DNA of 64,000 nt, from positions 62,001-126,000 of IMG/VR virus record IMGVR_UViG_3300028829_006090; one strand, given 5' to 3'. Numbering within the stretch: the first letter of the stretch is position 1; the number at the start of each line of letters is the position of its first letter. The notes under the pieces were generated by a model. That model was not told where the DNA came from. It did not search any database and was given only the letters and a program-made list of their open reading frames with translations. The position numbers and the translations under genes are program-made. Of the stretch, positions 2,897 through 49,732 are shown one piece after another. Source of the DNA: a virus.

Positions 2897-3877
2897 CTAG
2901 ACCTCCGAACCGAGTACAAGCAGCTTATTCTGTATGCTGGAGATAGCCGAACTGGTAGAGTCGTAGAACGCTTTGAGCGTGGCGTATCGCTGGTTAAGGT
3001 TAGCGATGGATGCTAAGATATTGTCTATGTTAGTGTCCTCATCGCAACAAGGTCTGGCACATGGATTAGAGATGACCACCGAGTGGCTGCCCTCCGCCTC
3101 TATGGCGGTACAGTCTCCTCCTAGGATGTTAAAATTCCTATTCGGATCCGGCAGCATGCCGTTTATCGTGCGGATAGGTCTGCCGTACAGGTCGGTGAGT
3201 GCCGCTAGTACGTCCTCGTCGTTAGATAGCTGTAGGGTGGAGCCGGCGTTTAGGGAGGCAGATACTGTGACAACCGTCTCGGTGTCCCCTCCGTCTAATG
3301 TCCGGGTATCTACGTCCAACGATACATTGGCCCCTTCCTTTAGCTTCACGTTGCCTGTGTATAGTCGGTTGTTTATCGATATGTACTGGACATTTAGAAG
3401 GCCCTTGGACACACGGGTCTGCAGTATCTTGGTGGACTTATCCGTCGTACTCTGGTCGAAGCTCCACGATCCGAGACTACGGACAGTGTCGACACACTCT
3501 CCTATAGTGATCTGCCCTGTCATGTAGTAGAGCGGGGAGAGCGCGCCTCCCCCTGTATACTCGTAAGGCGTGAAGTCATACGTGGAATGAGGATCTGCGG
3601 ATGTGTCGATGCTGCGGAATACCCCTAGAGGGGATGTGATAAGCGCGTCATCATATCCTACCTCTATGTCGATGAAGTTTTTACGTACAACGACTCTCTC
3701 GATATAGAACTGACTCTTGTCCACCTCCGGAAGGCACGGCACACATAGGAATATGTCTGAGATAAGTGAACTCGGCATCGTAAACGACCCAGTAGCGTCC
3801 ACTGCCCCGTTATCGTCTTCTATGGGGTAGGAGCGATGCAGGTTCTCGTCCAAGAATTCTAGTAAAATAGCAGACAT
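2897..3877 (-). CDS. Tail-tip/fibre-region protein, paralogue C
   Basis: A 326-residue protein with a GAGGAG ribosome site before ATG 3877. The N-terminus (HRSYPIEDDNG) shows the same tyrosine-proline-aspartate motif as the genes at 36-749 and 750-1661. A beta-rich middle contains RTINGMLPDP. Near the C-terminus NPCARPCCDED precedes a predicted coiled coil of about 50 residues. The full domain order (N-terminal module, beta region, cysteine cluster, helix) suggests it is the most complete member of the paralogue group. Structural role inferred from its place in the tail operon. Confidence 0.6.
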   Translation of the reverse strand: MSAILLEFLDENLHRSYPIEDDNGAVDATGSFTMPSSLISDIFLCVPCLPEVDKSQFYIERVVVRKNFIDIEVGYDDALITSPLGVFRSIDTSADPHSTYDFTPYEYTGGGALSPLYYMTGQITIGECVDTVRSLGSWSFDQSTTDKSTKILQTRVSKGLLNVQYISINNRLYTGNVKLKEGANVSLDVDTRTLDGGDTETVVTVSASLNAGSTLQLSNDEDVLAALTDLYGRPIRTINGMLPDPNRNFNILGGDCTAIEAEGSHSVVISNPCARPCCDEDTNIDNILASIANLNQRYATLKAFYDSTSSAISSIQNKLLVLGSEV

Positions 3878-7721: not shown

Positions 7722-9293
7722 CTAGGACCCCTCGGACACAGCGATGTTTACATCAGACGGGAAGCAGAAGAACTGGCAGTTCTCGAAGGATATTCCGGTA
7801 TCCGTGGGAGGCTTTACGTAGTTCTGGCTGCTTGTGTACGCCGTACTGCCGTCTGGGAGATACAAGGTGGCCCGAAGGTTAATCGGCATCCTCACGGTCC
7901 CCTCAGGAGACAGTCTCTGACATGCGCTCGCCAAATCTGACGTGTACAGCGCCTCGATTCCAATTGGCTTTCCGTTGATAACATCAGCCACAGCTTGTTG
8001 GAACTCGGCAGCCTCTGGAACGATAACTCCGGATCTGTGGGATATGTCGATGTCGGCCTCTATAACTATAGGGATCACCGCCTTTACCACGTGATCGAAC
8101 ACCATGCTCCGGACGCCCTCGCCGTTTAGGAAGTCCTGTGTCTCGGAGACTCCCGGCATGTACAGAACTCGCGCAGTGAAGATAGCCTCAGTAGCGCTGG
8201 GATCTCCGATGTCTGCCTCGAATGCTACTGTCAGTGTCTGGTACTTGCTATATCGAGCCTGGGCTGCCGATTCGACTAGCGGCCAGCCTCCGGTAGCGGA
8301 GTAGCCGACCGTGCTCTGTAGGCCGGCGTTGATGAGCTGGTTGTCGTAGGTAATCTGAGTAACCGCGTACGCTCCCGCAAAGGAGGCGGCAGGTACTTCC
8401 AGTTCCCACGAACCGTCGTCTTGTTTGTGCGCTGTGATTGGGGCATCCTGCGCGACCGGCACTACTGCGGTCCGGATATAGGCATCTACGCGTCCGCCGG
8501 AGCTTATTCCTCCGTTATTGACCGAGTCCCGGGTCTGCAAGGCATCTCCCATTCCGAATACTCTAGCGTCCTGTACGATAAGGTCCTCGTTGCTGACTAG
8601 GAACTGCTGGATGTTATCCTTGCCTGTAAGGACCTTCGCATTCACACCTAGGCGAGCCCTATCTAGCAGCTGAGCGTTTGTCTCCTCGGCAGAGCCTCCT
8701 GTAAAGGTGGATCCTATCTCGACGGACGAGACATTAGAGTCGGAGACGTCGGACGTACAAGGGAGGCCGGCCGACAGTGTTGACGTTAGAGGCTCTACCG
8801 TGCTGGCTTGGATGGAGAACACCTTACGGCCGCCACCTAGATCGACGAACGGCACGTACGTTACAGTATCTGTGTCCTCGTACACCGTGGTTCCCGCCAC
8901 ACCGACATACGACTTCAATGGTCTGATAGAGACGCCGCTACATATAAATGAAGCTGAGGCCGGGATGTAGATGTTGTTGTTCCCGTTAGTGTAGATGTTG
9001 AGGGATCCCGAGGCGGACGATCCCTCCTTCCGGGTGACATTGTAGTTAGACAGGAGGTTATCCACTAACTCGTCGTCCGGGGAGTCTGAGTTAAGGACCT
9101 GTGCTAGGGAGTAGTTGTCCCGCACGGTCTCTAGGTCTACGTCCTGCTTTGCAAAGTAATAGGACGCAGGCTTGATCAGCAGCTCGAACAACACAGTGCC
9201 GGTAGACACGTCTATTGTCGGATAGGTCTCCGTTAGTAGCTGCTGGAGCTCTGTTGCTATTCTATCCTGCTTCTCTGAGAAAGACTCATCCAT
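7722..9293 (-). CDS. Baseplate J-like wedge protein
   Basis: A 523-residue protein. The helical N-terminus (TELQQLLTETYPTIDVS, then TVLFELLIKPASYYFAKQ) is followed by a beta-rich middle with GSLNIYTNGNNNIYIPAS, the pattern typical of the phage Mu/P2 gpJ and T4 gp6 family, in which an early helical domain precedes a beta domain carrying asparagine- and glycine-rich turns. The C-terminal third (VIEADIDISHRSG, then QQAVADVINGKPIG) also fits this family. It would form the wedge ring of the baseplate. It overlaps the gp25-like gene by 8 bases. Confidence 0.78.
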   Translation of the reverse strand: MDESFSEKQDRIATELQQLLTETYPTIDVSTGTVLFELLIKPASYYFAKQDVDLETVRDNYSLAQVLNSDSPDDELVDNLLSNYNVTRKEGSSASGSLNIYTNGNNNIYIPASASFICSGVSIRPLKSYVGVAGTTVYEDTDTVTYVPFVDLGGGRKVFSIQASTVEPLTSTLSAGLPCTSDVSDSNVSSVEIGSTFTGGSAEETNAQLLDRARLGVNAKVLTGKDNIQQFLVSNEDLIVQDARVFGMGDALQTRDSVNNGGISSGGRVDAYIRTAVVPVAQDAPITAHKQDDGSWELEVPAASFAGAYAVTQITYDNQLINAGLQSTVGYSATGGWPLVESAAQARYSKYQTLTVAFEADIGDPSATEAIFTARVLYMPGVSETQDFLNGEGVRSMVFDHVVKAVIPIVIEADIDISHRSGVIVPEAAEFQQAVADVINGKPIGIEALYTSDLASACQRLSPEGTVRMPINLRATLYLPDGSTAYTSSQNYVKPPTDTGISFENCQFFCFPSDVNIAVSEGS

Positions 9294-9717
9294 TAGACTG
9301 CTCCGCGCTGATATTATCGATAGGGACGTTAACCGTAAAGAACTCGCCCGCCAGTGACTCTATCGTAAGATCTACGGCAACGGTACCTCTATCTGTGGTA
9401 GTGGCTTGAACCCTATATGACGACAGCTGCTCATCTGCAGATACATCTGCCGGGTACGTGAGCTCTAGGTCGTCTTTTACTTTATCCAGGGCTAATGTGA
9501 AAAGGTTGTTTAGGAAATCCGGACGACTGTTAGCAGAAATAGTCTCTGTGGCCAGGTTGGTTCCTATCCCAAGATTCGTAGAGACCGAGGAGTCCGTAAA
9601 TAGAAGGACCAGTATCTTCTGCACCAGCTTATAGATGCCGTCGTTCGCAAGGTTCGCGATCCGTAGATCCGACACTGAGTCTGCAGGGTCTCCTAGTATA
9701 GCTAGATCTAAGCTCAT
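9286..9717 (-). CDS. gp25/gpW-like baseplate wedge protein
   Basis: A 143-residue protein immediately before the J-like gene, where T4 gp25 or P2 gpW relatives normally sit. It has an N-terminal helix (KLVQKILVLLFTDSSVST) and a segment NLGIGTNLA where the family usually shows a glycine-rich pore or lysozyme-like motif. The C-terminal part alternates polar and hydrophobic residues as in the family's beta strand (TVAVDLTIESLAGE). The identification rests on size, position and weak similarity. Confidence 0.55.
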   Translation of the reverse strand: MSLDLAILGDPADSVSDLRIANLANDGIYKLVQKILVLLFTDSSVSTNLGIGTNLATETISANSRPDFLNNLFTLALDKVKDDLELTYPADVSADEQLSSYRVQATTTDRGTVAVDLTIESLAGEFFTVNVPIDNISAEQSNG

Positions 9718-10136
9718 CCTGCCAGCCTCACGTCCCCTACAAGGGAGTTGGTGTTATCCAAGTACTCCGGATTTGCCCGAGTACCTATCTCCGGTAGTAG
9801 TGCCTGTAGCACTCCTCCTGCATCTATGGCCCGGCGCTTACTGGTGAATATGCCTGCCCACTTACTTATACGGTTACATCGTCCGCTCTCGTATGCACGC
9901 TGATAGTTCGCAAGAAAGGCGTTCGCCTCTAGCGCATTAATCAGAGTAGCCTGCCGGACAGAGGCTGTGTTTGCCAGAATGGAGATAAGCTCTCCGATAT
10001 TCTGAGACAGCCACTGCGGAGTAAGCGCGACCTGCAGAGCTTCAAACGTGTCGTCCGATGCATCTAGACCCAGGATCTGGTCGATCTCGGCCGAATACTG
10101 GTCCGCTAGCAGTCTGCATAGCTCCCGTGGTGTCAT
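9714..10136 (-). CDS. Small baseplate-region protein
   Basis: A 140-residue mainly helical protein that overlaps both neighbours by 4 bases (ATGA junctions), so it is probably translated by coupling from the sigma-like gene into the gp25-like gene. It contains TPQWLSQNIGELISILAN and RYAR-free amphipathic helices, without cysteines apart from two scattered ones. No family is recognised. Its position inside the baseplate cassette suggests a structural or assembly role. Confidence 0.55.
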   Translation of the reverse strand: MTPRELCRLLADQYSAEIDQILGLDASDDTFEALQVALTPQWLSQNIGELISILANTASVRQATLINALEANAFLANYQRAYESGRCNRISKWAGIFTSKRRAIDAGGVLQALLPEIGTRANPEYLDNTNSLVGDVRLAG

Positions 10137-10849
10137 GCCTTAACCTCCTCTAACTTCTGAACGATCTTAGATACCCGCTGACTGATAGCTGGCTGAGATA
10201 TGCCTAGCTTTGTAGCGATCTCCTTCTTACTTAGACGCGCTGCTCCGTTATATCCCGTAGTCCACTCGAAGATCTTCTTATCTTTCTCTCCGAGATCGAA
10301 ATACACGTAGTCGACCCATATATCTGAGGCGCTCTTCGACTTGCCAGCTAGATCACCTTTATCGGAGAGCGCTCGAGAGGTCGGAGCCTCCTTCAGTCTG
10401 GTTCTGTTTATCCGTTCCACAGATATGGACAATCCGTCCGCGATCGCTGTGTCGCTGGGTTCGCGTCCGTGAATGTCGGTATACTCTCGCGTGAACTCGT
10501 CCACTTGTCTGCGGTCGGTATGGGTCTGCTCTGGGAAGTGTAGGGCGTTCTGTCGCTTTGCCTTGATTCGGTTCAGGCGGCGTAGATGGTTGTAGACGTG
10601 CGTATTGAGAGCCGCGCCTCTGGTGGGATCGTAGCTCTTTATAGCATCTACAGCGAGGACACGCGCCTTTGTACGATACGCCTTATCTCCGCCTGCGTGC
10701 GCGGTAAGGCCGGACTTAACGGCGGGCTCTACCTCTTTTAGCACCGCATATAGATTATCGTCTGTAGGTGACTTCTTCCATTTCTCGAACGACTCCGGAC
10801 CTGTTAGCTCGGATGTCTTCCTAAATTGTCCTTTGAGGCCGGGATGCAT
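10133..10849 (-). CDS. Sigma-70-family-like transcription factor
   Basis: A 238-residue protein with sigma-like architecture. Residues 60-97 (VDAIKSYDPTRGAALNTHV) resemble region 2, whose usual phrase is FDPSRGV.FSTYA. Residues 100-150 (HFPEQ, then HGREPSDTAIADGLSISV) match region 3, usually GREPT.EEIA..LG.S. Residues 186-234 hold a region 4 helix-turn-helix (SKKEIATKLGISQPAISQ). Region 1.1/1.2 is missing and region 2.1 is short. It would confer promoter specificity on a polymerase. Unusually, it sits between the hub gene and wedge genes, overlapping the next gene by 4 bases. A partner in the same window is the phage RNA polymerase. It could instead redirect host core enzyme. Confidence 0.72.
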   Translation of the reverse strand: MHPGLKGQFRKTSELTGPESFEKWKKSPTDDNLYAVLKEVEPAVKSGLTAHAGGDKAYRTKARVLAVDAIKSYDPTRGAALNTHVYNHLRRLNRIKAKRQNALHFPEQTHTDRRQVDEFTREYTDIHGREPSDTAIADGLSISVERINRTRLKEAPTSRALSDKGDLAGKSKSASDIWVDYVYFDLGEKDKKIFEWTTGYNGAARLSKKEIATKLGISQPAISQRVSKIVQKLEEVKA

Positions 10850-10865: not shown

Positions 10866-12455
10866 CTAATTGTTGAACTGTGTATGTTCCGGCAGTTCTG
10901 ACAGAAGTGTGCCGGACAGGTCCATACCTACCCACGAGGCCTCGTACAAAGGCTCACCGTCTGAAGTGAATCTGTCGGAATCGTTATCCTCTTTAGTCCT
11001 CAGACCGCCCAGTGTAATATCGGTATGGATAAACGGCTGGCCGCCTTGGCCCGCATCGCACGTAAAAATAGTCCTCACTACCTGTCCGACATACGACACG
11101 CCTCCCAGGGCAGATACAGGAGATCCGTCGTCGAACAGGCCCTTTACCTCTAAGATAGATCCCGGCATTATGTCTACCCGAAACGGCACCCTCACAGTAG
11201 CTGCGGTATTCTTTACCTGTTCCTCTCCGAATGCCGTTCGAAGGACTTTGGTAGATATAGCTCCTGCATTCTCGGCCGCCTCTCCTAAGGTGGCCGTAGA
11301 GTCCGAAGGAGCGTTCAGCAAACTTCTCAGCGGGATAAGGAACCGGGGATATGTCTTCTGGAAGTAGTAGGTGTTAGGTAGAGGCTTCCCGTCCTCTGTC
11401 GTCGGGAAGAATAGGGTATTTCTGATAGCTCCAACCAATGCGATGACATTCTCTTTTACGATGCGTACTCCGCGTACTTGCTGGTTAATATCTGCGCGCT
11501 TTGTGCGGGATACGGTAACGTACTCCGAAGGTCTGAGGGAGGTAGTTACGTTCTTATTTAGCGGATAGGCTGCTGCAATGTAGAGTCCTTGGGCATACGG
11601 CAGGATACGTATATTGAAGTACGCACACACTCTCTTCAGGGCATCCAAGCAGTTAGACGACCTCCATTGCTCGAGGAATGCTTCCACTGCCTCCCTACCT
11701 ATAGTTGTAGCGAGAAGCTCCGTGGCAGGTATACTCGTAAGGTTGGTCGGGTCATACGTCTTTATTAAGTCTGCCTCTGCAGATCCGTCGCCTCGGTCGA
11801 ACTCGCTGTGCAGGGCCTGCACTGCCTTCTTTAGCACTCTAGCTGGATACAAGGCCTCCGAGGGGCCCAGCTGTAGCGACTGCTCCCCCACCTCCTCGGA
11901 TACTCCTAGCAGGCTGTCCGTTATCGCCTGTGTACGCAGAGGGTTCTTTGCGGCGGGCTGCAGATTCAGATCCAAGTCTGTGCCTCCACCCGCATAGACA
12001 TATGTGCTACTGGCTGCTCCACCAAGAATGCTGGCGATATGGGCTATCTCCAAATTTATTGATACCCGATTGGAGGGGCCGGACGCGCTGTCCTGAAGAC
12101 TAACTGTCGAGACGATTCCTCGTATTACGGTGACTCTACGAGGCGCTCCGATCTCCTCTCCGGGGAACCGCAGAAGTACTACGAGTTCGCACGGGGCTCC
12201 CTCTAGTTTAGCCTGCAGCTCTCCGTCCATCGATAGCCGGCTACCTACTCCTATGCGTGTACCGAATGCAGGGACTGCGCGGGCAGTAGGTAAGCTATTT
12301 ACCTCGTAGCTGGCGGAGAACGACGTGAGGGGTAACGTCTCGTAGGGCTCAGACTCGAATACACTGGTCCCTAACGGCTCAGCCGGGTCCGCCTCGTATA
12401 TCTCGAGGTAGCTGTCCTCGATCTTATATCGTTTGAAGTTAAGCTGAGGAGGCAT
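10866..12455 (-). CDS. Baseplate hub-like protein (gpD/gp27-type candidate)
   Basis: About 529 residues. The frame is open upstream to 12653, but I start at ATG 12455 (MPPQLNFKRYKIEDSY), because the upstream part is low-complexity arginine/proline sequence lying inside the preceding gene and has the look of an out-of-frame shadow. The beta-rich N-terminus and a C-terminal domain with PGSILEVKGLFDDGSPVS, GQVVRTIFTCDAG and HTDITLGGLR fit hub proteins of the late-control-D kind, which end in a beta domain receiving the spike. Gene order (tape measure, two small genes, this, wedge genes) agrees. Moderate confidence. Confidence 0.6.
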   Translation of the reverse strand: MPPQLNFKRYKIEDSYLEIYEADPAEPLGTSVFESEPYETLPLTSFSASYEVNSLPTARAVPAFGTRIGVGSRLSMDGELQAKLEGAPCELVVLLRFPGEEIGAPRRVTVIRGIVSTVSLQDSASGPSNRVSINLEIAHIASILGGAASSTYVYAGGGTDLDLNLQPAAKNPLRTQAITDSLLGVSEEVGEQSLQLGPSEALYPARVLKKAVQALHSEFDRGDGSAEADLIKTYDPTNLTSIPATELLATTIGREAVEAFLEQWRSSNCLDALKRVCAYFNIRILPYAQGLYIAAAYPLNKNVTTSLRPSEYVTVSRTKRADINQQVRGVRIVKENVIALVGAIRNTLFFPTTEDGKPLPNTYYFQKTYPRFLIPLRSLLNAPSDSTATLGEAAENAGAISTKVLRTAFGEEQVKNTAATVRVPFRVDIMPGSILEVKGLFDDGSPVSALGGVSYVGQVVRTIFTCDAGQGGQPFIHTDITLGGLRTKEDNDSDRFTSDGEPLYEASWVGMDLSGTLLSELPEHTQFNN

Positions 12456-13158
12456 TGTGGCAGAGCTCCACAGCAGATATCGCAAATGCTGCCAGTTTAT
12501 TAGACCACAGGGGATCTGATTTCCACGTATCCTCCAGGTCCGGGTCGGACCATGCGGCGGGTATGGCTGCCGCCTTGGATAATAGGTCCGCGTAATCTGT
12601 CTTTGGCAGGACGGTCTTAGACACGGTGAACTCGTACGGCGATGCTGATGCAAAGTCGCTCTGCATACGAACCCGTACCCCTGGATAGATCGTCACATAT
12701 GAGCTTAGGTTCCCGGTAACGGTGTACGATCCAGACGTCCACTCTGAGGACACTGTATTCGTAGTGGTGTCTATCGAGCAGGACATGGATACCGAGGCCC
12801 GTCCTTCATCTAAGAATACCTCGTCATCAGAGAACAGGAAGATCCGCAGATCTGTAGGCTGAGCAGTAATCTCTATTGACAGGTCCGAGCTCGGGAAAGT
12901 CAGAGTAGCCTTGTCGTAGGTATTTACCGGATCGATGGCCTGTAGTCTATCGGCGAAGGGGGATCGGCGGACGAGCTCGAGAATACCCTCTGCCCGATGA
13001 GATCTAAGTAGGTCGTCCGAGAACGGACATAGGATGTCCAGCATACGCACTGCTGCGGCAGATGAATCTGTGTACGCCGATGCATCTACTTTACGAGAGG
13101 AGGTAGGGTCTGCGTATGCGGAGCCTTTGGAGAGTACGGACCAGGCTTGGTTAATCAT
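12439..13158 (-). CDS. Hypothetical baseplate/tail protein
   Basis: About 239 residues from ATG 13158 (MINQAWSVLSKGSAY). An upstream in-frame ATG at 13209 is formed by the palindrome at 13201-13222 and is unlikely to be the start; AAGGA lies upstream of 13158. The protein is soluble, with a helical middle (LRSHRAEGILELVRRSPF) and beta segments, and it overlaps the hub gene by 17 bases. No family is recognised. It probably belongs to the baseplate hub assembly. Confidence 0.6.
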   Translation of the reverse strand: MINQAWSVLSKGSAYADPTSSRKVDASAYTDSSAAAVRMLDILCPFSDDLLRSHRAEGILELVRRSPFADRLQAIDPVNTYDKATLTFPSSDLSIEITAQPTDLRIFLFSDDEVFLDEGRASVSMSCSIDTTTNTVSSEWTSGSYTVTGNLSSYVTIYPGVRVRMQSDFASASPYEFTVSKTVLPKTDYADLLSKAAAIPAAWSDPDLEDTWKSDPLWSNKLAAFAISAVELCHNASSA

Positions 13159-13200: not shown

Positions 13201-13222
13201 ATCTAGCATACGTATGCTAGAT
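13201..13222 (-). promoter_or_regulatory. 22-bp perfect palindrome with core TAGCATACGTATGCTA
   Basis: The 22 bases form a perfect inverted repeat around TACGTA. It lies between the stop of the 13222-13722 gene and the start of the next gene at 13158. It is the longest of five related sites. Its repetition at junctions suggests a promoter element or operator for a phage-specific regulator rather than a terminator, because no T run follows. Confidence 0.5.
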
Positions 13223-13722
13223 CACGCACCTCCGCCGTTCTGTTTTATGCGGCCTAGGAGCTGTAAGCTGAACCGCATCTGCCCTACGTCGGATTTCGAG
13301 AACGATGGAATATTCATAGATATGATGTAGGCCTCGACTACCAATCCGCTGAAGGATAGCTTCACCGATTTGTTGTCCGGGCTGGCGATATTGTATTTTT
13401 CGTACAGCTTGTAGAATCCCGGAGGATCGTTAGGCGTGCCTTGTTGGGCCGCGTCGCCGTTCGGACATCGCTTAGCGGGCACAAATACCCCGTCCAGCGT
13501 CCACGACGACAATCTCTGGCTAAAGACGTTAAGATAGGCATCTGGGCCCAGGCTATACATAATCTGATAATTCGGAGCTACACTTCCTCCGAAGTTACTC
13601 ACGAACAGATCTCCGTCTAGCTCCGCTCCATCTACGTCGGATATGGTGAGTAAGGATTTGCCATCTCCGTACTTATCCAAACCTACCGAGATCTGAGGTT
13701 CTTCGTATAGCGGCGTTCTCAT
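13222..13722 (-). CDS. Small tail/baseplate protein after tape measure
   Basis: A 166-residue protein. Its start codon shares a base with the tape measure stop (TAATG). The sequence is beta-rich (KLSFSGLVVEAYIISMNI) and ends with KQNGGGA. Proteins of this size directly after the tape measure are often tail hub or tail-tube-like initiator proteins, and the segment PSFSKSDVGQMRFSLQLLGR could be part of a tube-like fold. The stop codon coincides with the palindrome. Family not established. Confidence 0.55.
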   Translation of the reverse strand: MRTPLYEEPQISVGLDKYGDGKSLLTISDVDGAELDGDLFVSNFGGSVAPNYQIMYSLGPDAYLNVFSQRLSSWTLDGVFVPAKRCPNGDAAQQGTPNDPPGFYKLYEKYNIASPDNKSVKLSFSGLVVEAYIISMNIPSFSKSDVGQMRFSLQLLGRIKQNGGGA

Positions 13723-16082
13723 TACACTCCTCCTCCAGTCTTTACGGTTCCTTGATCGCCGGCCGGGTTATTAACCATAAGACCTAGGAGACTTGCCAGC
13801 GTATTGAGTACCGCTATAAGTTTAGCAGTCCAGTCCGTATTCTCGTCCTCATATGCGGCGTCGTATACGTTCTTCTTCTCCCGGGCAGTCTGTCCGTAGG
13901 CTTTCATAAAGTCTGACCTGCTCATCATGCCTTTTTCGCCGAACTTAAACTCGCCGCCGGTCTTGAGCGCCTCTCTATAGGCCGCGGCTGTTTCGAAGAA
14001 GCTGGCTTCTTGATCATCGTCTAGTCCGGCTATTTCGAACGAGTCTTTATCTAAAGACCCTATCGCCCCAAGCGCTAAGTATTTTGCAGCGTCCTGCTTA
14101 TCGCTGATAGAGACGCCGTTCAGTCCTCCTTCCGACTCTGTCAGCGCCTCTATCATACTTTTGTTTAATTCTCCGGGTGCCGAGACTTTAGCCGCGAATG
14201 CCCGGGCGGCGGACTGCTGATCTTCTAGTGTTTCTGCGGAGAAGATAGCTCTAGCAGCTAGTTGTTGGTCGGCAGTCATTCTGTTTCCGGCAATCTTATT
14301 AGTAACCAAGGCGCTTGCCGCTAAAGATGCAGAGTCTGCCGCTAAGCCGCCTCCTTTTTGTAGGCCCTCGAGTCCGCTGAAATAGTTCTTGAAATCGCCT
14401 CCTTCTAGATCCGCGTTGCCGGTTAGGAGGCGGTAGATATTCTTATCGCTATTTGCTAGATCACCGCTCTGAGCCATCTCTATGATCGCCCCTAGTCCAA
14501 ATGCCTTTCCTTTACCGGACACTGCATCTTTGAACTCGGTCTGCTCTTGGATGCTGTCCCGTATCCTACCCAGCTCAGCGTCGTTGCGAATAGACGAGGC
14601 GTATTTATCCAGAGCCTCTGCTCCTTGGAATCCCATAGCTCTGGCCTGTACTCCGAATGCTCGCCGCAGAGCTCCTCGTCCCGCTACGTCTAGCCCTAGG
14701 CCTTCTGCGATGTTGGACATAGTCATAGGGCCTGTTATGCCGGAAACTGCTTCTGCCCCGTACACACGAGTAAGGTAGTTACGTCGAGTATCGTCCAGCG
14801 CGGCAATCCCTCCGCGCATGGCCTCCAATCCTCCTACGCCGTCTTCAGCCCTCAGAGTTGCTGCTTCCTGGGAGAATCCGGCAGCTCGGATATCTTCGGC
14901 AGACAGTCCGGTAACTTCGGCGATATCTGATAAGCTGCGTATTTCTCCGTTGGCTACTCCCGCCTGTATTATCGCTTTTTGTTCTTCGTCTATGGCGTAT
15001 GCCCCGGAGATATCTCTAGCGAAGTCGCTATACATAGCTCCGGTGGTCTGCTTCAAAAGGGTCCGGCGATACTGCGAAGAGTTTATGAACTTATTGGTGC
15101 CCGTAACACGTCCAACGGCCTCTTGCTCTGCGAAGAGCATGGCAGCCGACGCTGAGTTGAGAGACCCTAGTCCGGCTCTATTAGACAGGCCCGCCGACTC
15201 TGCCATAGCCGCCTGAAGCTGAGAAGGGGAAGTGCTGGTAACAAATCCCGTGGTCCCCAGCCTCTGCGCTAAGGATCTGCCTGCGTCGTCGAAGGTCGCT
15301 GCAACGTCTGTACCCAGTAGCGAGTTCACACTGTCCATAACCTGCGTGACAGATCCCTGGAATACAGACCGGAATTCCGAGATAGACTGGGAGGTCTTCT
15401 GCACTAGCGCGACTGTCTTTGCTTTTATGTCCTCCGCACTATCGTCTCCTGACAGTATGTCGGAGAACCCGCCCGTGCGCGCTAGTTCGGAGTATACGAT
15501 CCCTACGTCTCGGCCCCTCATGCCTCCGTACGCTGATATGTTCGCGGGGAAATCTGCAGCTAAGCCCGTGGCCATGTTTCGGGCAATGCCTAAACGATCG
15601 TCGTCGGCGCCTCCGAATCCGGCCATAATGCCCATATATCTACCGCCGCTGCCGATGCCGGCCAGTAGTTGATCGGTCTGCAGTCGAGCGAACCCTGCTC
15701 CGGCAAGTAGTCCGAACGCATTGGATCCGGTAGCCGAAGGTCCTCCGAACATGTACGACGCAGCCTGGCTTGTGAATTTTTCCCGGGCTTTGTTTAGCTC
15801 TATATTGGCGTCTTCGTATACTGTCTGTATGACGTCGCGCTGGGCTTGGATGAAAAACTCGGATCCGACATCAGTTGGTGCGAACATCCCCTGCGCGCCG
15901 AAGGCGTACGGATTTGAGTTATTTCCCCCGAACCTTGCGCTGGCCCCTAGATACTGCTCGAGCTTAGGAGTGAACGCCTGCACGATCTGGGCTGCTATTC
16001 CGGAGTCTCCGAAGATCTGGCTGAGCTTCTGGAGAAGGATCTCCATCTCGCTTACACCTGAATAGTCTTCTTGTGGAGGCAT
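13722..16082 (-). CDS. Tail tape measure protein
   Basis: A 786-residue, Ala/Gly-rich, largely helical protein directly after the tail assembly chaperone pair, the standard place of the tape measure. It has long helices (AAQIVQAFTPKLEQYLG) and many small residues. A hydrophobic stretch near the C-terminus (LIAVLNTLASLLGLMV) could insert in the host membrane during ejection. At the usual rule of about 0.15 nm per residue, the predicted tail is around 115-120 nm. No muralytic domain is evident. It ends in a glycine-rich tail. Confidence 0.78.
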   Translation of the reverse strand: MPPQEDYSGVSEMEILLQKLSQIFGDSGIAAQIVQAFTPKLEQYLGASARFGGNNSNPYAFGAQGMFAPTDVGSEFFIQAQRDVIQTVYEDANIELNKAREKFTSQAASYMFGGPSATGSNAFGLLAGAGFARLQTDQLLAGIGSGGRYMGIMAGFGGADDDRLGIARNMATGLAADFPANISAYGGMRGRDVGIVYSELARTGGFSDILSGDDSAEDIKAKTVALVQKTSQSISEFRSVFQGSVTQVMDSVNSLLGTDVAATFDDAGRSLAQRLGTTGFVTSTSPSQLQAAMAESAGLSNRAGLGSLNSASAAMLFAEQEAVGRVTGTNKFINSSQYRRTLLKQTTGAMYSDFARDISGAYAIDEEQKAIIQAGVANGEIRSLSDIAEVTGLSAEDIRAAGFSQEAATLRAEDGVGGLEAMRGGIAALDDTRRNYLTRVYGAEAVSGITGPMTMSNIAEGLGLDVAGRGALRRAFGVQARAMGFQGAEALDKYASSIRNDAELGRIRDSIQEQTEFKDAVSGKGKAFGLGAIIEMAQSGDLANSDKNIYRLLTGNADLEGGDFKNYFSGLEGLQKGGGLAADSASLAASALVTNKIAGNRMTADQQLAARAIFSAETLEDQQSAARAFAAKVSAPGELNKSMIEALTESEGGLNGVSISDKQDAAKYLALGAIGSLDKDSFEIAGLDDDQEASFFETAAAYREALKTGGEFKFGEKGMMSRSDFMKAYGQTAREKKNVYDAAYEDENTDWTAKLIAVLNTLASLLGLMVNNPAGDQGTVKTGGGV

Positions 16083-39832: not shown

Positions 39833-42103
39833 TTACAACCTAACCGGGTCTAGCACTTTAGGAACATATGATGTGCCCTCGTGCTTGCTACTGGATCCTA
39901 ACTGGGCTGCCTCTAGGAATGACTTTTTAAGGCCAAACCCGGATAATCGTACTTTCCAGTCGGGATCGCTTCCGAGGACACCCATCGCTCTAACCACGTG
40001 CGGCTCGAATCCGGGCCCCTCTTTATGAGTAACAATAGTCTCTACCCCGTTATCTTCCAAATCTTTCGCAATCTTCGACGTTACTTTAGTACCTATAGAG
40101 TAATGCATGGTAGGCTTCTCCAGGTACGTACCTACCGCCCGCTTTGGGCGCAAAGGGTTAGAATCCTTACGTGGAATGTACTCACTAGCTAGCTGAGTAT
40201 ATGGAACAATGTCGGATATAGCATATCCCATAACGCCTTCCGGTCGTGTGATTTTAACTTTATCGAAGAATGCTCTGGACAATACCTCTACATTACGTCT
40301 ATGCGAGGATACTCCGTTTTTTGTAAGGATCTCGTAGAACTTGTCTTGGAAGTACCGGCGGCCTTCCCCTAGCCCTTTCGCCTGCGCGATCTCTGCAGGG
40401 TTAGGAGTGCCGTCTGTGAGCACATCTCCAGAAGTCACCTCATCTCCCACCTTTACGGTAATATTCCGTGTACCTGGAGAGTATTCTGGCTCTCCGTCTA
40501 TATACACGTACTTGCCTCCTTGAGGGGCGTCTACGATGCGTGTGACCTTGCCGTCTCGTTTAGACAGCACTGCGCCTCCCTTGAAAGTCTTAGGAACCTG
40601 GACGAATTGGTTTACCTCGTCGAACCCTGACACGTTGGACGTGTTCTCCCCTACCACTCCGCCTAAGTGCTTGGCGGATAGCGCGAGCTGCTGGGTCATT
40701 GGCTCTGATAATACTCGAGCAGACTCGATACCTATGTATGCTCCCATAGGCGGGAACTTATTCTGATCTCGTTTTCCGGAACACATCTGACATACGCCTT
40801 CCGGCATCTGGCAGGTTAGTAGTGACCGGATCATTACTCGCTTGCCTCTCAGGGTAGCGAGATCTTTACGGGATACGGCAGTATTTCTGGAGATGCCTTC
40901 AGTGTCCCGAGAGATGACTGATCCTAGTATCTCGGGGTCATCTCCATCTACCATAAGACCTACCCCATCTGCCCCGCAGTCCTTCCCGGTAACTCGAATG
41001 TGCTGCGACATAGCTGCGAGCTGTTTACCTAGAAATCCTGTCTTGGCCGTTGCGAACTGTACGTCTGAGTTGCTGACGATAAGGCCGTTCGCTAGTACGA
41101 ACATATGATCGGGGTGATCTACTTCCAGGTCGTACGTAGGAGTTAGACCGAGGGGCTCCGGATCACTCTGCTTCTTTAAGAATCCTGCTTTGGTCCACTC
41201 GTCCTTATCTAAGACAAGGGTCTTGTCGCTAACTCTACAGCGAGTCGCCTCTCCGATTGGATTCATATCTCCGCCTCGGGTCGCCAGTATCTTGTGATCC
41301 GGGGTAGCCTCTATGTATATGGAGGCTCCGCTACCGAAGTGGTATCTGTAGACGACTCTTACGCCGTTGTAGTGCCTGTCGATAACCTGTACTGGGAATG
41401 TATCTCCGGCAGGGCCGGATCCGAGCACCCATTCGCCGGGCCCTATGTCCTCTATACGCTTAACAGACGTGTCCGCCATCCGCACCAGAGTGTTGGGAGA
41501 CAAGCAGTATCCTTTTCGCGACGCGTACGACCCTGCCCAGAACTCCGGACCAGTCACTCCTTCTCCGTATCCGTGCATTCCAGGGATAGGTACAGGGCGA
41601 TCTCTGTGGTCTGCTACTAACATGTCGCCGAACAGGAGCTGCGTGAGCTGGGTCGGTGATCCGCGTAGTCCTTGCTTCACCATCTCCCCGTATGCGTTTG
41701 GACGAGTCTCCAGTTCGGCTAGTAGCGTCTTCTGGATAGTCGGCATAGCCTTCTGCATAGTCGACATGATCTGCTCGTCCTTCTGCGCTGAAGTCAAGGC
41801 GTTGCTCTGAGAGATGGCCCGTATCTTCTCTTGCAGCTGCTTACGATATGCCTTTGTCTTCGGTGGCAGCCTAAGGTCTGTAAGCCGCAACGAGGATGTT
41901 CCTCCGTACTCAGTCGCAACTACCCGGGAGATATCGGAGAGTCTTTTCAGCACCGTCACGTAATCGTCCGGGTGCTTCTCTGCTAACTCTTGGAAGAACG
42001 CCGACGAAGTCTTCTTGTTTAAGACTCGTCCGGGCTCTCGCATAGACTCGGGGATCGCCTGGTCTATGAGTATCCTCCCTAGCGTTGTACGGGCAGCGGG
42101 CAT
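39833..42103 (-). CDS. RNA polymerase beta-prime C-terminal subunit, interrupted by a mini-intein
   Basis: About 756 residues from ATG 42103 (MPAARTTLGRIL); the frame is open upstream to 42139. The start matches bacterial beta-prime at its TTVGR segment. Restored across the intein, SYASRKGY + SDVQFATAKTG aligns with the bridge helix (GARKGLADTALKTANSG in E. coli). Zinc site 2 is intact: C376, C431, C438 and C441 (KDCG, LLTC, GVCQMC). The trigger loop reads SEPMTQQLALSAKHLGG with H479 in the place of E. coli H936, while E. coli M932 and R933 become L and S. The long SI3 insertion is absent. Together with the gene at 45284-49732 it forms a two-gene multisubunit polymerase. Confidence 0.9.
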   Translation of the reverse strand: MPAARTTLGRILIDQAIPESMREPGRVLNKKTSSAFFQELAEKHPDDYVTVLKRLSDISRVVATEYGGTSSLRLTDLRLPPKTKAYRKQLQEKIRAISQSNALTSAQKDEQIMSTMQKAMPTIQKTLLAELETRPNAYGEMVKQGLRGSPTQLTQLLFGDMLVADHRDRPVPIPGMHGYGEGVTGPEFWAGSYASRKGYCLSPNTLVRMADTSVKRIEDIGPGEWVLGSGPAGDTFPVQVIDRHYNGVRVVYRYHFGSGASIYIEATPDHKILATRGGDMNPIGEATRCRVSDKTLVLDKDEWTKAGFLKKQSDPEPLGLTPTYDLEVDHPDHMFVLANGLIVSNSDVQFATAKTGFLGKQLAAMSQHIRVTGKDCGADGVGLMVDGDDPEILGSVISRDTEGISRNTAVSRKDLATLRGKRVMIRSLLTCQMPEGVCQMCSGKRDQNKFPPMGAYIGIESARVLSEPMTQQLALSAKHLGGVVGENTSNVSGFDEVNQFVQVPKTFKGGAVLSKRDGKVTRIVDAPQGGKYVYIDGEPEYSPGTRNITVKVGDEVTSGDVLTDGTPNPAEIAQAKGLGEGRRYFQDKFYEILTKNGVSSHRRNVEVLSRAFFDKVKITRPEGVMGYAISDIVPYTQLASEYIPRKDSNPLRPKRAVGTYLEKPTMHYSIGTKVTSKIAKDLEDNGVETIVTHKEGPGFEPHVVRAMGVLGSDPDWKVRLSGFGLKKSFLEAAQLGSSSKHEGTSYVPKVLDPVRL
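41069..41506 (-). mobile_element. Mini-intein (146 residues) inserted in the bridge helix of beta-prime
   Basis: Counted from ATG 42103, the intein spans C200 to N345, with block A CLSPNTLVRM, block B ATPDHKIL (T267, H270) and ending NGLIVSN before extein serine 346. No LAGLIDADG or other endonuclease domain fits in 146 residues, so it is a minimal Hint-type intein. The penultimate residue is serine instead of the usual histidine, which may slow asparagine cyclisation. The site is between the equivalents of E. coli L783 and A784. Confidence 0.88.
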
Positions 42104-42107
42104 AGAG

Positions 42108-42665
42108 TTATCTAAACTTATTATCGATGATGTTACCAAACACGGTGCCGAGGAACGGCACTGCCTGCCCTACCTCTATCCCCCTATCCTTCCAAGTCCT
42201 ACCGTCTATCTTACCTGTAAGATGTTTTGCTATAGACATGAGCTTGGCCTTTCTAGTAGGGTCCTTTTCAGACGTGGCGGCTTCGGTAAGCACTTGGCGG
42301 CGAGCGATCAGCGCATTTCGGTGCTTTAGATTAGGTGCCCGAGTCCTTGCTTTTTTAGCATTGCCCTCGATATCTCCCTGTAGGATTCCTCTCTGGGAGT
42401 TGATAAAATCTATCTCTTCCTTAGAGATATCTGACGTGGGGTTGCCTAGAACGTAGTCTTTATATTGACCTAAGCTGGATATACCCTTCCGTCTTCCCTG
42501 CATGAGCTCCCCTGCTGCAAGACCAACGCCTGCTCCGACGCCACCTCCAATCAGATACTTGTTGAAGGTCCTATCGGACTCGGGCACGAGCTTGCGGGTT
42601 AGCGCGACTCCGATGACAGCGCCGAGCGGGGTCGTAACTAGTGATGGGTTGATTGGATCCTTCAT
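42108..42665 (-). CDS. Small virion-region protein with Gly-rich membrane segments
   Basis: A 185-residue protein with GGAG before the ATG. It begins with a hydrophobic stretch (TTPLGAVIGVALTRKL), and a second Gly-rich segment (YLIGGGVGAGVGLAAGEL) is followed by a basic, helical C-terminus. It lies between the repeat-rich gene and the polymerase C-terminal gene. One or two membrane-inserting hairpins are plausible. Similar compositions occur in several neighbours, suggesting a group of virion or ejection proteins. Function unknown. Confidence 0.55.
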   Translation of the reverse strand: MKDPINPSLVTTPLGAVIGVALTRKLVPESDRTFNKYLIGGGVGAGVGLAAGELMQGRRKGISSLGQYKDYVLGNPTSDISKEEIDFINSQRGILQGDIEGNAKKARTRAPNLKHRNALIARRQVLTEAATSEKDPTRKAKLMSIAKHLTGKIDGRTWKDRGIEVGQAVPFLGTVFGNIIDNKFR

Positions 42666-45283: not shown

Positions 45284-48200
45284 CTATTCCAGTATGGTGA
45301 TGGGGTCGTCTATTGCTATCTTACCTGACCTATACGCCTTTCTTGCATCGGCCACGGTATTGAATACAGCGGCTGTCTTATCTGCAGGAGCCTTGGTAGC
45401 TAGATATAGCCCCTGCAGATATTCATTGGAAAGCTTATACGATGCCTGTCCTGATCGGGCGGAGATTAGATTGCGGTCCGGCATCATGCGGTCGACCACT
45501 TGGGATACCGCCTCGTCCGAGACAGGAACGGTGAATGACGCTGTGTCTCCGTCATAGTCCATGGCGAATGGCCCTACAATGGCCGGAGGCACTTGGACGG
45601 TAGATCCTTTTACGAGTACCGGCCAGAATCCCATGACACTGTACTTGTGTAAGGTAGGCGCCCGATTTAAGATGACAGGGCGCTTGGTGATAACAGACTG
45701 CAACGACTTGTACGCTAGGGGTGAGTGATCTTTGACCGCTGTTGCAGCCTCTGTGGCAGGGACGCCCTGTCGCACAAGGTCTCGGATAACAAACGGCTCG
45801 TATAGATTCCAAGCAAGCTTCTCTGGGATGCCCGCTTGGTTGAGTAGAAGGGACGGATTAGGTGCGACTACGCCTAGTCCCGACATATCGATATTAGTCC
45901 CTAGAACTCGGCGCTGAATGAAGCCTGTCTTCGGACTTCCTTTTCCGAATATGTGCGAAAGGATGCCCTTTACGTTCTTCTGTACGAGCTGATCCTTCTT
46001 CGGATCGGATACACCGATGAGAGCCTTGTAGCTATCCCATAGATCTCTTCGAGCATCGTTACGCATATCTGCCGGTAGTCCCTCTGTCTCGTTATAGTCG
46101 GAGATAGACTCCACTAGAGACTTATACAGGTAGTTCGGGTCGGCCACCATCGTCATCCCTCCCTGTGCTGATATAGGACGGAACCGAGGCGGAAGTACCG
46201 GAACTCGGGTCATCATGAAGTCCGATGGCTTCACCTTGTTAGTTTCGAAAGCATGTAGGAATCGGAACTTTTTTACAGCATCGTCGCGCTTAGATCTGAT
46301 GCCGTGCTTTATCTCGTGCAGCGCCTTGGCCTTTTCTGCCTTGACGTCGATTCTACCTAGCTTGTCGGCTAGAGCGTCCTCTCCGGAGGCCACTAAATCC
46401 TCCATCTCGGTTCTTTTTAGGCCCAATATACGCCGTATAGGGTCTACCATGATAGGGTTAGGCATGGCCGTAGGGAGGTCAATGTATGCCCATCTGTCGC
46501 CGTTAGCCGAGCTTCCGGTAGCGTCGGGGTCAAATAGGCCTCCTGGGATGGGCTTAAGACCTTTTGCTGTATATGTATCACCGGTAGAGATCTTTCTATT
46601 TCCGGTAAGGTCTTTTGCCTGTTGGTTGGTCATAGAGAATATGTCGTCGGAGAACGCGCCTTCCGACAGATGTACTCCGCCTGCTCTGAGGAGGTCCTTA
46701 AACTTCTCGTAGACTAGCGGAGTCTTCGGCATGGTAGGGGTCTGTCCCAGCTTCAGCTGACGCCAGAACATATCGTTCTTCTGCCCCTTGATGAGCTTCA
46801 TGTCCTTGAGGACCTCTGTCGCCCCGTGTGCTAAAAGAGCCTCTTGGTACATCTTGCCTAGGTGTTTAGCGCCTGTCTTGCCTCCCTTGGCCGGCTGGTC
46901 CTCTGCTGTGTACTTAGCCTGTGATCTGGACTTGCCTTTACCTTCGGACGTATGCTGCATCTTGTAGAAGTACGTCACTCCGGTAAATATCTGGGGGATC
47001 TTCTTCCCGGTTCTCGGATCTACTAGGTCCTCTCTATCGGATAGTCTATTCTTCTGGAGCTCGCTATGGGTGAACTCTATCATGTCTTCGTCTGAGAATC
47101 CCGGTAAGACGTAGGGCTTGCCTGTCTTCTCTGCGATCTTGCCTAGCTGGGCCTCTAGCTTCTGTGCCGGGTTAGTTCTGCTGACTACTCCCAGGGGAGA
47201 CAGTATGACGTCCATCTTTCTGCCCTTAGGGTCCGTCGGCATCTCAGAGTCCTTGATCACCTTAGAGATTACGCCCTTGCCGCCGTGCCGCATGGCCAGT
47301 TTATCTCCTACGCCCATGGGTATGTTCGTACGGACATTGATGTAGTACTGCTCTTTGCCTTCGGTCGCGTCTGTGACTACTCCGGGGTGTCTCTTCTCCC
47401 ACAGCACTGCCTTGTTGGAGCGCATGCGGCGGCCAAGGGATCCACCGGCATGCGGATCCTGCTCGGACATCGCCAGAGCAAGCGGATCTCCATATCGTAC
47501 GACCGATCCGGGCTTTATCATCCCCGTCGTTTCGTCGATCTTAGCGAGCTGCTCTTTATTGAAGGCGGCGGGGAAATTAGCTCTGAACTTATCCTTAGAG
47601 ACAGACAGGTCCTTTTCCTTCTTGAACTTAGCATGATACATATGCTCTGACGTGAGCTTCTTAGCTGCCGTCTCGGATATAACAATGGCATCCTCGAACA
47701 CCAGTCCGTCATAGTTCCAGTACGCTACGCGGAGATTAGTCCCGAGGGCCGCTACTCCCTTATCGCTGGTGAAGTTACTGGCTGCGAGCATGTCGCCCTT
47801 CTTCACCTTGTCTCCGGCCTTTACTAGGGCCTTGTTGCGGATGTACGTGGATCGGGCATACGGAAAGTTCTCGTACAGATCCACGGATCCCTCGGATCCG
47901 TCCGCATAGGTTAGGTCTACTCTATTCTTGCGGACGGCCTTAACTGTGGCGTCCCTAGAGGCGCGCACTGCTCCGAGATGGCCGCCTATGCGTCTCTCCA
48001 TGCTGGTGCCGCTTCCGGGATCGGTAGTTCTTACTAGCGGAGCCTCTCTGCTCACCAGAGGAAGTGCCTGGGGCCCAAATTTCGAGCCCATTAATAAACG
48101 CATTCCCTTATCTCCGGATTTCAGAGGAACCAGGTTAGCCCCATCGCTAAACATATCATCGTTGTTCGGTACGACGTAATCGATGTCTTCACGCTTTACC

Positions 48201-49732
48201 CATGCCATGCCCTTATTAGGCACCATCGCAATTACGTAGGGGTCTGTGTTCTTCTGGAATCCCGGCCATGTCAGGTTCTTTCTAGCGGCCTCTCGGATCC
48301 CTACCCACTTCTCCTTACCTGTACGGGCATCTATGAATTTAGAGTACAGCTGACGGTCGGGGCCTCTACGTACGTTGCGCGACATCTTCATATCTACGCC
48401 GATCTTTAAGCTTTCCGGAGCACGAACTGGATCAATGTAATTCAGGTACGTGGGCTGTACGCCTCGGGCCTCTTTAGGGACAACATCTACGCTAGTCATC
48501 GCGCCCTCGCCTAGGCGTAAGATCCGCTGGTTCTGGTCGTACATGTCTAGCGGATTGATCTCTTCGATGGGCTGAGCCATCCCTGAGCTGACAAACAGAT
48601 GCTGTACGTGTTTATCGAGAGGGGCGGTAGGTACTGCAGATATGTCTCCGTTCTTCTTTGAGACTTTCCATAGGATCTGTCGCAGCACTCCGTTCTGGTC
48701 GTTGGCTACCTTGTCACTAAGGAAGTCCGATATATCCCAGACGTCCTGGAACTCTAACGAATCCCTACTGTCGGAGTCTTCGTCTCCTTTGGCAACCCGC
48801 AGGATCTTCCCGGTAGCCGACATAATAGCCTCTGGAGAAGCGTTGGTGTGATCCTCTCCGAGAGTAACCCTAGTGACCCGGGGGTTGAGTCCGATTTTAC
48901 CGAACTCTTCAGTAAGTCCTTCCCGGACCGTGTCGTTGTATAGGGAGGACACTGTCGACCCTGTCTTCTGCTGTAAGAGCTGTGCAACTACAGGCCCTGC
49001 CTTGGCGTCCAGTGCTATGGGCGCTGCCGGTGCATCTGGCTCTGGGGCAACTGCGAATCCTTTTAGGAAGTTGACTGCGTAGGGAGACTTCTCTAAGGTC
49101 CTGTTCTTCTCCGCGATGTCTTTTCCCCACTGCGCCTCGATATCTTCGTGCTGCTTACCCATGGCCCGGAGGATAGGATATAGCGGAAGCTTACGGTTCT
49201 TATACTTCATGTAGAAGAAAGACGTCGACGGCTCCATGTATATACGGAAAGAGGGCCCGGACCGTGGAATAGCGTTGAACTGGGCCTCTATGTTCGAGTC
49301 ATCCGTTACGCGCGTGTATATTCCTGAGTTGAGACGAAGCTGCTTCGCTACAGTGTATTCCGTGCCGTTACGTACGTACGTGCCTCTGTCTGTAAGGTAC
49401 GGCACGTTTATGATAGTCTTCCGGCCAGTTCTGCCTAGCGACTTGCCTGTCTCCTTATCGATAACCTCCCACCGACCTGTCACCTTATCGCTAAGTGTCC
49501 GGCCCTCTAGGATCGCGTCCTTCTGCTGGGACAGCGAGTATCTACCTTTAGGCTTAGCGTACGCGACGTCTGTGGCCTTTAGCATGTATCTGTCGTTTTC
49601 GGAAAACGCTGATTGCTCTACTGAAGACAGGACCTTCTTTCGAAGATCGGTTCGTACTGAATCGTAGTCCGTATAATTTAGGAGACCGGTACCATCTGAG
49701 AAGTCCGGAGCAGGAGAAGGCATCTCAGGCAT
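45284..49732 (-). CDS. RNA polymerase beta/beta-prime N-terminal fusion subunit
   Basis: A 1482-residue protein. The beta part has VPYLTDRGTYVRNGTEYTV near residue 95, a Rif-region-like stretch INPLDMYDQNQRILRLGEG near residue 390 and the catalytic block DKLAMRHGGKGVISK near residue 805, with PLGVVSRTNPAQKLEAQLG after it. A junction near residue 1110 leads directly to the beta-prime start PIPGGLFDPDATG, without the usual gene break, and the zinc cysteines of beta-prime site 1 are absent. The catalytic loop is FAMDYDGDTASF (bacterial NADFDGD), and RAPTLH is kept. It ends at AYRSGKIAIDDPI, where the second gene takes over. No alpha or omega gene is visible here. Confidence 0.93.
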   Translation of the reverse strand: MPEMPSPAPDFSDGTGLLNYTDYDSVRTDLRKKVLSSVEQSAFSENDRYMLKATDVAYAKPKGRYSLSQQKDAILEGRTLSDKVTGRWEVIDKETGKSLGRTGRKTIINVPYLTDRGTYVRNGTEYTVAKQLRLNSGIYTRVTDDSNIEAQFNAIPRSGPSFRIYMEPSTSFFYMKYKNRKLPLYPILRAMGKQHEDIEAQWGKDIAEKNRTLEKSPYAVNFLKGFAVAPEPDAPAAPIALDAKAGPVVAQLLQQKTGSTVSSLYNDTVREGLTEEFGKIGLNPRVTRVTLGEDHTNASPEAIMSATGKILRVAKGDEDSDSRDSLEFQDVWDISDFLSDKVANDQNGVLRQILWKVSKKNGDISAVPTAPLDKHVQHLFVSSGMAQPIEEINPLDMYDQNQRILRLGEGAMTSVDVVPKEARGVQPTYLNYIDPVRAPESLKIGVDMKMSRNVRRGPDRQLYSKFIDARTGKEKWVGIREAARKNLTWPGFQKNTDPYVIAMVPNKGMAWVKREDIDYVVPNNDDMFSDGANLVPLKSGDKGMRLLMGSKFGPQALPLVSREAPLVRTTDPGSGTSMERRIGGHLGAVRASRDATVKAVRKNRVDLTYADGSEGSVDLYENFPYARSTYIRNKALVKAGDKVKKGDMLAASNFTSDKGVAALGTNLRVAYWNYDGLVFEDAIVISETAAKKLTSEHMYHAKFKKEKDLSVSKDKFRANFPAAFNKEQLAKIDETTGMIKPGSVVRYGDPLALAMSEQDPHAGGSLGRRMRSNKAVLWEKRHPGVVTDATEGKEQYYINVRTNIPMGVGDKLAMRHGGKGVISKVIKDSEMPTDPKGRKMDVILSPLGVVSRTNPAQKLEAQLGKIAEKTGKPYVLPGFSDEDMIEFTHSELQKNRLSDREDLVDPRTGKKIPQIFTGVTYFYKMQHTSEGKGKSRSQAKYTAEDQPAKGGKTGAKHLGKMYQEALLAHGATEVLKDMKLIKGQKNDMFWRQLKLGQTPTMPKTPLVYEKFKDLLRAGGVHLSEGAFSDDIFSMTNQQAKDLTGNRKISTGDTYTAKGLKPIPGGLFDPDATGSSANGDRWAYIDLPTAMPNPIMVDPIRRILGLKRTEMEDLVASGEDALADKLGRIDVKAEKAKALHEIKHGIRSKRDDAVKKFRFLHAFETNKVKPSDFMMTRVPVLPPRFRPISAQGGMTMVADPNYLYKSLVESISDYNETEGLPADMRNDARRDLWDSYKALIGVSDPKKDQLVQKNVKGILSHIFGKGSPKTGFIQRRVLGTNIDMSGLGVVAPNPSLLLNQAGIPEKLAWNLYEPFVIRDLVRQGVPATEAATAVKDHSPLAYKSLQSVITKRPVILNRAPTLHKYSVMGFWPVLVKGSTVQVPPAIVGPFAMDYDGDTASFTVPVSDEAVSQVVDRMMPDRNLISARSGQASYKLSNEYLQGLYLATKAPADKTAAVFNTVADARKAYRSGKIAIDDPITILE

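Follow-up and report, generated by a model that had tools for sequence, protein, structure and literature searches.

Reviews place large phages on either side of a divide, with an RNA polymerase (RNAP) of their own and no sigma homologue on one side and sigma factors that act on the host enzyme on the other (Sokolova 2020, PMC7598289; Iyer 2021, PMC7824862; a 2026 review, PMC13282480). Phages of the phiKZ/AR9 type encode a multisubunit RNAP together with their own specificity protein (phiKZ gp68, AR9 gp226), and the phiKZ vRNAP is packaged and injected (PMC13282480). These RNAPs lack sigma sequence homologues; AR9 gp226, a component of the non-virion enzyme, does not resemble sigma in sequence (PMC13282480, PMC7598289). 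The virion RNAP of N4 is likewise packaged and injected for early transcription (PMC4496689). Reduced phage sigma factors such as T4 gp55, and those of jumbo phages without their own RNAP, act on host RNAP (PMC7824862). Tailed phages with bacterial-like β and β′ subunits have been described as mReC phages (Weinheimer and Aylward 2020, PMC7481178), and no sigma factor is mentioned in the main text of that paper. In Salmonella phage Arash, Gp10 (annotated as 'RNA polymerase sigma factor RpoS', OQ632216) was found in the virion with the RNAP; the protein is given one sentence, without analysis of lineage, synteny or pairing (PMC10585845).

The window analysed here, a stretch of 64,000 nucleotides, comprises positions 62001–126000 of a 164,893-base viral record (G000) and encodes both a sigma-70-family protein within a tail operon and a two-gene multisubunit RNAP. 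Arash Gp10 belongs to the same sigma family and has the same operon place and kinds of neighbours; it differs in being only ~26 % identical to the window protein and in having a less recognisable region 4, and Arash possesses an additional canonical sigma, Gp196, that is missing from the G000 phage. Assignment to the phiKZ/AR9 type was considered and rejected, as the specificity protein of the window is recognisable as a sigma-70 protein by sequence; the RNAP, a β–β′ fusion close to bacterial RNAP, is also unlike that type. The N4 enzyme resembles the present proposal in being packaged and injected, but is a single-subunit T7-like RNAP that uses hairpin promoters and no sigma (PMC4496689), a description that draws in part on general background. 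T4 gp55 shares the reduced sigma form, but works in phages that have no RNAP of their own (PMC7824862). The bacterial-like β and β′ are shared with the mReC phages, and the two may possibly represent one lineage.

That Arash particles contain a sigma has already been published (PMC10585845). No other virion sigma factor was found in the literature searched, most subscription journals being outside its scope, nor was any report found there of the sigma family, of a fixed place for its gene, of pairing with RNAP across the lineage or of a division between two sigma factors.

Identification of the tail-operon sigma gene

The sigma gene occupies positions 10133–10849 on the minus strand and encodes a protein of 238 aa with an ATG start. 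The frame has a coding signal similar to that of neighbouring ORFs (GC by codon position 0.56/0.43/0.58), and the chance of an equally long open frame at the same base composition is ~2e-5. Pfam matches to Sigma70_r3 (E=8e-6) and Sigma70_r4 (E=9e-6) both exceeded the curated cut-offs, and PHROG 351 (sigma) matched residues 67–234 (E=1e-10). The NCBIfam FliA/WhiG and SigBFG models also gave matches (1e-9 to 1e-7), which were far below the cut-offs of those models. The Pfam region 2 model did not match the sigma gene in this record. A profile built from 12 family members aligned with bacterial SigA across regions 2, 3 and 4 (profile positions 31–224, E=1.2e-12). In the 238-aa protein, region 2 lies at approximately aa 31–100, region 3 at 113–150 and region 4 at 185–235; region 1.1 is missing. 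Across the 12 members Pfam detected region 3 in all 12 and region 2 in five; region 4, though significant in the window protein, has degenerated in most relatives (PF04545 in one of the 12).

Structure prediction gave the same assignment. The 50 best PDB matches found by Foldseek for the AlphaFold model of the window protein (mean pLDDT 74) were all either sigma-factor chains or models of RNAP complexes (E 1.7e-7 to 1e-4), and the best matches of a second model, made for an Arash-like relative (mean pLDDT 73), were also sigma chains in RNAP complexes. TM-scores were low (0.2–0.4) because the domains were recognised but their relative placement was poorly predicted.

The ORF is therefore a genuine sigma-70-family protein by sequence and fold, whereas core binding and directed initiation are inferred. 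Every family member has the same region 2.3 core, DP..G..L.THV.N, and the DLIQEG motif of region 2.2, which faces the bacterial core, is replaced; with region 4 degenerate in most members, the mode of core binding is therefore not the textbook one. The residues that melt the canonical –10 element (E. coli sigma70 Y430, W433 and W434) are not kept, the aligned positions being an invariant His, an invariant Asn and His/Trp, respectively. With His and Asn in place of Tyr430 and Trp433, the promoters of the tail-operon sigma are probably not TATAAT-like. Promoter recognition is thus likely to be non-canonical, an inference made from sequence alone, which argues against a housekeeping-type sigma but not against membership of the sigma family.

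The phage RNA polymerase

The larger RNAP gene (45284–49732, minus strand; 1482 aa), a homologue of Arash Gp206, encodes β fused to the N-terminal part of β′. The fusion contains Rpb2_6 (8e-46) and Rpb1_2 (8e-18) domains, its profile matched β (4e-103) and β′ (7e-67) in the PDB, and the catalytic NADFDGD motif appears as AMDYDGD. The C-terminal part of β′, a homologue of Arash Gp216, is encoded by an ORF of 768 aa at 39833–42139 (minus strand), which was identified by Rpb1_5 (1e-10) and NCBIfam rpoC (5e-48) and supported by alignment. In bacteria, sigma regions 2 and 4 dock on the clamp helix and the flap of RNAP. Both stretches of the phage enzyme align to bacterial RNAP, but another sequence takes the place of the arginine-rich one in the clamp helix (LYRRLINRNNRLK in Thermus). 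Replacement of both the clamp-helix sequence and region 2.2 is the pattern expected of a co-evolved, private sigma–RNAP pair; this remains a possibility inferred from the sequences and is not proof.

The C-terminal β′ ORF also carries a mini-intein of ~146 aa (41069–41506, minus strand), recognised by a Hint module (4e-5), by TIGR01443 (intein C-terminal splicing region, above its cut-off) and as an insertion in the alignment. Its first residue is Cys and its last residues are Val-Ser-Asn before Ser; it has no endonuclease. It splits the protein where the sequence aligns with the bridge helix of bacterial RNAP (ARKG before the insertion, ...TADSG after it) and is missing in five relatives.

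Gene neighbourhood, conservation and co-occurrence with RNAP

The sigma gene begins 16 bases after a hub-like ORF (10866–12653), and its stop overlaps the following ORF by 4 bases (ATGA). The hub-like tail gene, whose likely ATG lies at about 12455 (10866–12455, minus strand), had no Pfam or PHROG match and was assigned by its position and a relative in G001 (E=1e-4); the Arash gene in this area encodes a cell-wall hydrolase, Gp8, which is a virion protein. The two genes that follow the sigma gene, one of 140 aa (9714–10136, minus strand, with GAGGAGG upstream) and one of 143 aa (9286–9717, minus strand), had no family match; they are the positional counterparts of Arash Gp11 and Gp12, both virion proteins (Gp11 in PMC10585845, Table 2). 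The next gene (7722–9293, minus strand) encodes a Baseplate J/wedge protein, supported by phrog_6 (1.1e-8), by a Pfam Baseplate_J match just under the cut-off and by homology to the virion protein Gp13 of Arash (phmmer to Arash 13472–15058, 1e-16). Further away, a homologue of the Arash portal protein Gp204 (55195–57063, minus strand; phmmer 2.7e-55) lies upstream of the RNAP gene, an arrangement also seen in Arash.

An initial annotation, made without database searches, had described a sigma-70-like gene at 10133–10849 with regions 2, 3 and 4 recognisable and region 1 absent. All of this held, with the exact ORF supported by Pfam, the SigA profile and Foldseek, regions 3 and 4 found by Pfam, region 2 found only through the family profile and no region 1.1. 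Homology to a structural protein family in place of sigma, which it had named as a refutation, was checked and did not emerge, the structure prediction having matched sigma factors. Its statements that the gene follows a hub gene and overlaps a baseplate gene held with regard to gene order and the overlap itself; only position and Arash synteny support the labels 'hub' and 'baseplate' for the genes directly adjoining it, 7722–9293 alone being recognisable as a baseplate gene.

Annotated phages that matched most of the sigma length by tblastn were limited to Vibrio phages D69, D148 and D181 and Salmonella phage Arash, and the same four were the only ones to match the RNAP fusion over >80 % of its length. 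Matches in Synechococcus phages were rejected as not belonging to the family, being sigma genes outside tail operons in phages absent from the RNAP search results. Single-sequence scans of viral contigs with sigma and with RNAP found no relatives. With three-sequence alignments as queries, 26 viral loci were obtained for RNAP and 13 for sigma, and the records were then cross-searched. Any RNAP match was present in 14 records of at least 160 kb, 12 of which contained a close β–β′ fusion RNAP (G000, G001, G002, G003, G004, G006, G011, G012, G019, G021, D69 and Arash); all 12 also contained the sigma. In the remaining two (G023 and G024), which had only a distant RNAP match, the sigma family was not found. 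The phages are related, so this co-occurrence reflects conservation within one deep lineage and does not count as 12 independent events.

The order hub or hydrolase gene, sigma, ~130 aa gene, ~160 aa gene, Baseplate_J and next tail gene was conserved in D69, Arash, L035, L040, L043, G001, G004 and G021, with an extra gene of ~95 aa between the hub/hydrolase gene and sigma in some phages. The sigma keeps this tail-operon place in D69, in Arash and in uncultivated phages, with sequence identities of 20–40 %. Few other genes are shared over such distances: 14 or 15 of the 196 genes of G000 had detectable relatives in Arash, D69 or G004; those with relatives in all of Arash, D69, G001, G021 and G004 numbered only nine. 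This nine-gene core consists of the terminase, the portal, the two RNAP genes, four structural-region genes and the tail-operon sigma; the hub gene and the two genes next to sigma fall outside it.

In a sister group (G007, G008, G009, G015, G016, G020 and G022), whose contigs are fragmentary, neither a tail-operon sigma nor a related Baseplate_J was found. Only the canonical second sigma was seen in this group, several members of which have the RNAP split into β and β′ N-part genes.

The sigma orthologue in Arash virions

Purified Arash particles have been analysed by tandem mass spectrometry (PMC10585845). The most detected protein was Gp206, the β fusion (128 unique peptides, 3516 spectra), and the C-terminal part of β′, Gp216, was also present (40 unique peptides, 1210 spectra). 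Gp10, the orthologue of the window sigma by sequence and position, was detected with 24 unique peptides, 100 % coverage and 467 spectra, and the second, canonical sigma, Gp196, was not among the proteins detected (PMC10585845). Counts were normalised per residue for 65 Arash genes, which are only part of the proteome list, and spectral counts are a crude measure. On this basis Gp10 ranked first in unique peptides per residue. Its 2.00 spectra per residue compare with 2.31 for Gp206 and 2.00 for Gp216, and the values for the large baseplate neighbours were lower (0.98 for Baseplate_J and 0.66 for the next tail gene); other tail genes approach it (gp16, 1.85; gp12, 1.51). The proteome of 116 proteins includes likely carry-over, such as ribonucleotide reductase, DNA ligase and primase, and the authors named carry-over as an alternative (PMC10585845).

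The Arash helicase Gp217 (L186 29262–30680), encoded directly after the β′ gene, was detected with 38 unique peptides and 1148 spectra. Its abundance in the virion equals that of RNAP, and it may possibly belong to the injected machine.

Proposed role and alternative explanations

The sigma homology, the conserved tail-operon place, the strict co-occurrence with RNAP and the presence of the orthologue and both RNAP subunits in Arash virions are shown. The reading that best accommodates them, and which we consider likely, is that the window protein acts as sigma for a bacterial-type RNAP carried in the virion, with early transcription as its probable task. The holoenzyme, the same behaviour in this phage and the early role are inferred, without binding or transcription data. 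In this view the protein would be a promoter-specificity subunit reserved for the multisubunit RNAP that the phage itself encodes in two genes. It would be made late with the tail proteins, join newly made phage RNAP and be packaged in the virion; at the next infection the preformed holoenzyme would be injected with the DNA and would read early promoters without host RNAP. Since Gp10 occurs in Arash virions with RNAP, these phages probably deliver their DNA together with transcription machinery that is ready to work. For the phage studied here, the presence of RNAP and specificity factor in the particle is supported by analogy only, through Arash Gp206, Gp216 and Gp10.

The initial annotation had also assumed two phage RNAP subunits, which were found at 45284–49732 and 39833–42139, and had proposed that the sigma serves either late feedback or, together with the phage polymerase, an initiation complex packaged in the virion. 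The Arash data support the packaging option; binding, promoter choice and timing remain inferred.

The most serious rival is a late intracellular sigma that, with new phage RNAP, drives late tail and head genes including its own operon, its presence in virions reflecting holoenzyme that was swept in. In its favour are the location of the gene in a late operon, the candidate-promoter palindrome that opens the stretch containing it and the carry-over raised by the Arash authors. However, Arash Gp196 was not carried over at all, whereas Gp10 is among the best-covered proteins, and the known virion RNAPs of N4 and phiKZ act early (PMC4496689, PMC13282480); we therefore regard this explanation as unlikely.

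A second rival is that the sigma redirects host RNAP, like T4 gp55 or SPO1 gp28/gp34, and that the phage RNAP uses another factor. This is the usual mode of most phage sigmas (PMC7598289, PMC7824862), and the fold is that of an ordinary bacterial sigma. Against it stand the perfect co-occurrence with phage RNAP, co-packaging with RNAP at similar abundance and replacement of the residues by which region 2.2 docks on bacterial β′, which leave it very improbable. A sigma-derived structural part of the baseplate with no transcription role would fit the fixed place between hub and wedge genes, the occurrence in virions and the decay of region 4 in most members, but is hardly tenable given that region 3 persists in 12/12 members with an invariant region 2.3 core, that abundance tracks RNAP and not the pair of large baseplate genes and that sigma belongs to the nine-gene core from which the hub and two adjoining genes are excluded.

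The packaged-sigma reading can be extended to a bolder one, for which we see no clear balance of evidence in either direction: that in a lineage of large phages the injected machinery is an entire holoenzyme of bacterial type, consisting of the fused β–β′, the β′ C-terminal part and a dedicated sigma from the tail operon, with a two-sigma relay in the Arash/D69 branch. In such a relay the packaged sigma would start early transcription, and the canonical second sigma, made in the cell, would then take TATAAG promoters. If true, this would be the first sigma-70 homologue working with a phage RNAP and the first carried in a virion, as far as the literature searched allows. The lineage already breaks the divide drawn in reviews, as an own multisubunit RNAP and a recognisable sigma occur together and the sigma, on the evidence of Arash, travels in the particle. 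Confirmation would provide a small viral sigma-dependent RNAP that could be rebuilt from three proteins, and would show sigma–core co-evolution outside cells. The start of transcription in such phages would become directly testable with the cultured phages Arash and D69.

Promoter motifs and other sigma factors

A 16-base palindrome, TAG(C/A)ATACGTAT(G/T)CTA, occurs in the window at 3868, 13204, 23742, 31526, 50895 and 59782, at junctions of co-directional genes, some copies having two to three mismatches. An exact copy, TAGCATACGTATGCTA (13204–13219, no strand assigned), lies at the junction that opens the hub–sigma–baseplate stretch and is a candidate promoter or operator. The stems flanking the palindrome vary in sequence yet often remain complementary, and 22 sites with up to four mismatches were found in the record, compared with 5–9 in simulated sequences. 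No copy was found in the relatives tested, and the palindrome therefore cannot be tied to the tail-operon sigma.

A second small sigma-like protein, of 164 aa and ECF-like (NCBIfam 5e-9), is encoded outside the window (G000:C1 159702–160196, minus strand; L002 1477–1971). It had no relative in five genomes compared, and a palindrome variant lies ~20 bases upstream of its gene.

A TATAAG motif was found upstream of many genes in Arash, D69 and G004. It was present in 12/119, 16/104 and 13/110 upstream regions where the second canonical sigma is encoded, compared with 1/95, 1/102, 1/63 and 3/101 where it is not. TATAAG was therefore not assigned to the tail-operon sigma, since it tracks the second canonical sigma, albeit in few and related genomes. 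This second sigma (A6 family; Gp196 in Arash) keeps the Tyr and both Trp melting residues.

D69 also carries a gene annotated as an Srd-type anti-sigma factor (L003 23371–23621), despite having its own RNAP and two sigma factors. In all six Arash-like relatives examined (L004, at ~11589, L040, L042, L045, L046 and L047), the sequence gggTATAAG(T/A), a motif of the kind used by non-structural genes, occurs 0.3 kb upstream of sigma, within a spacer of 13 bases that precedes gp9, the gene directly before sigma. The sigma gene of these phages may therefore have its own promoter there, so that co-expression with tail proteins, as originally proposed for the window gene, may not be the only mode.
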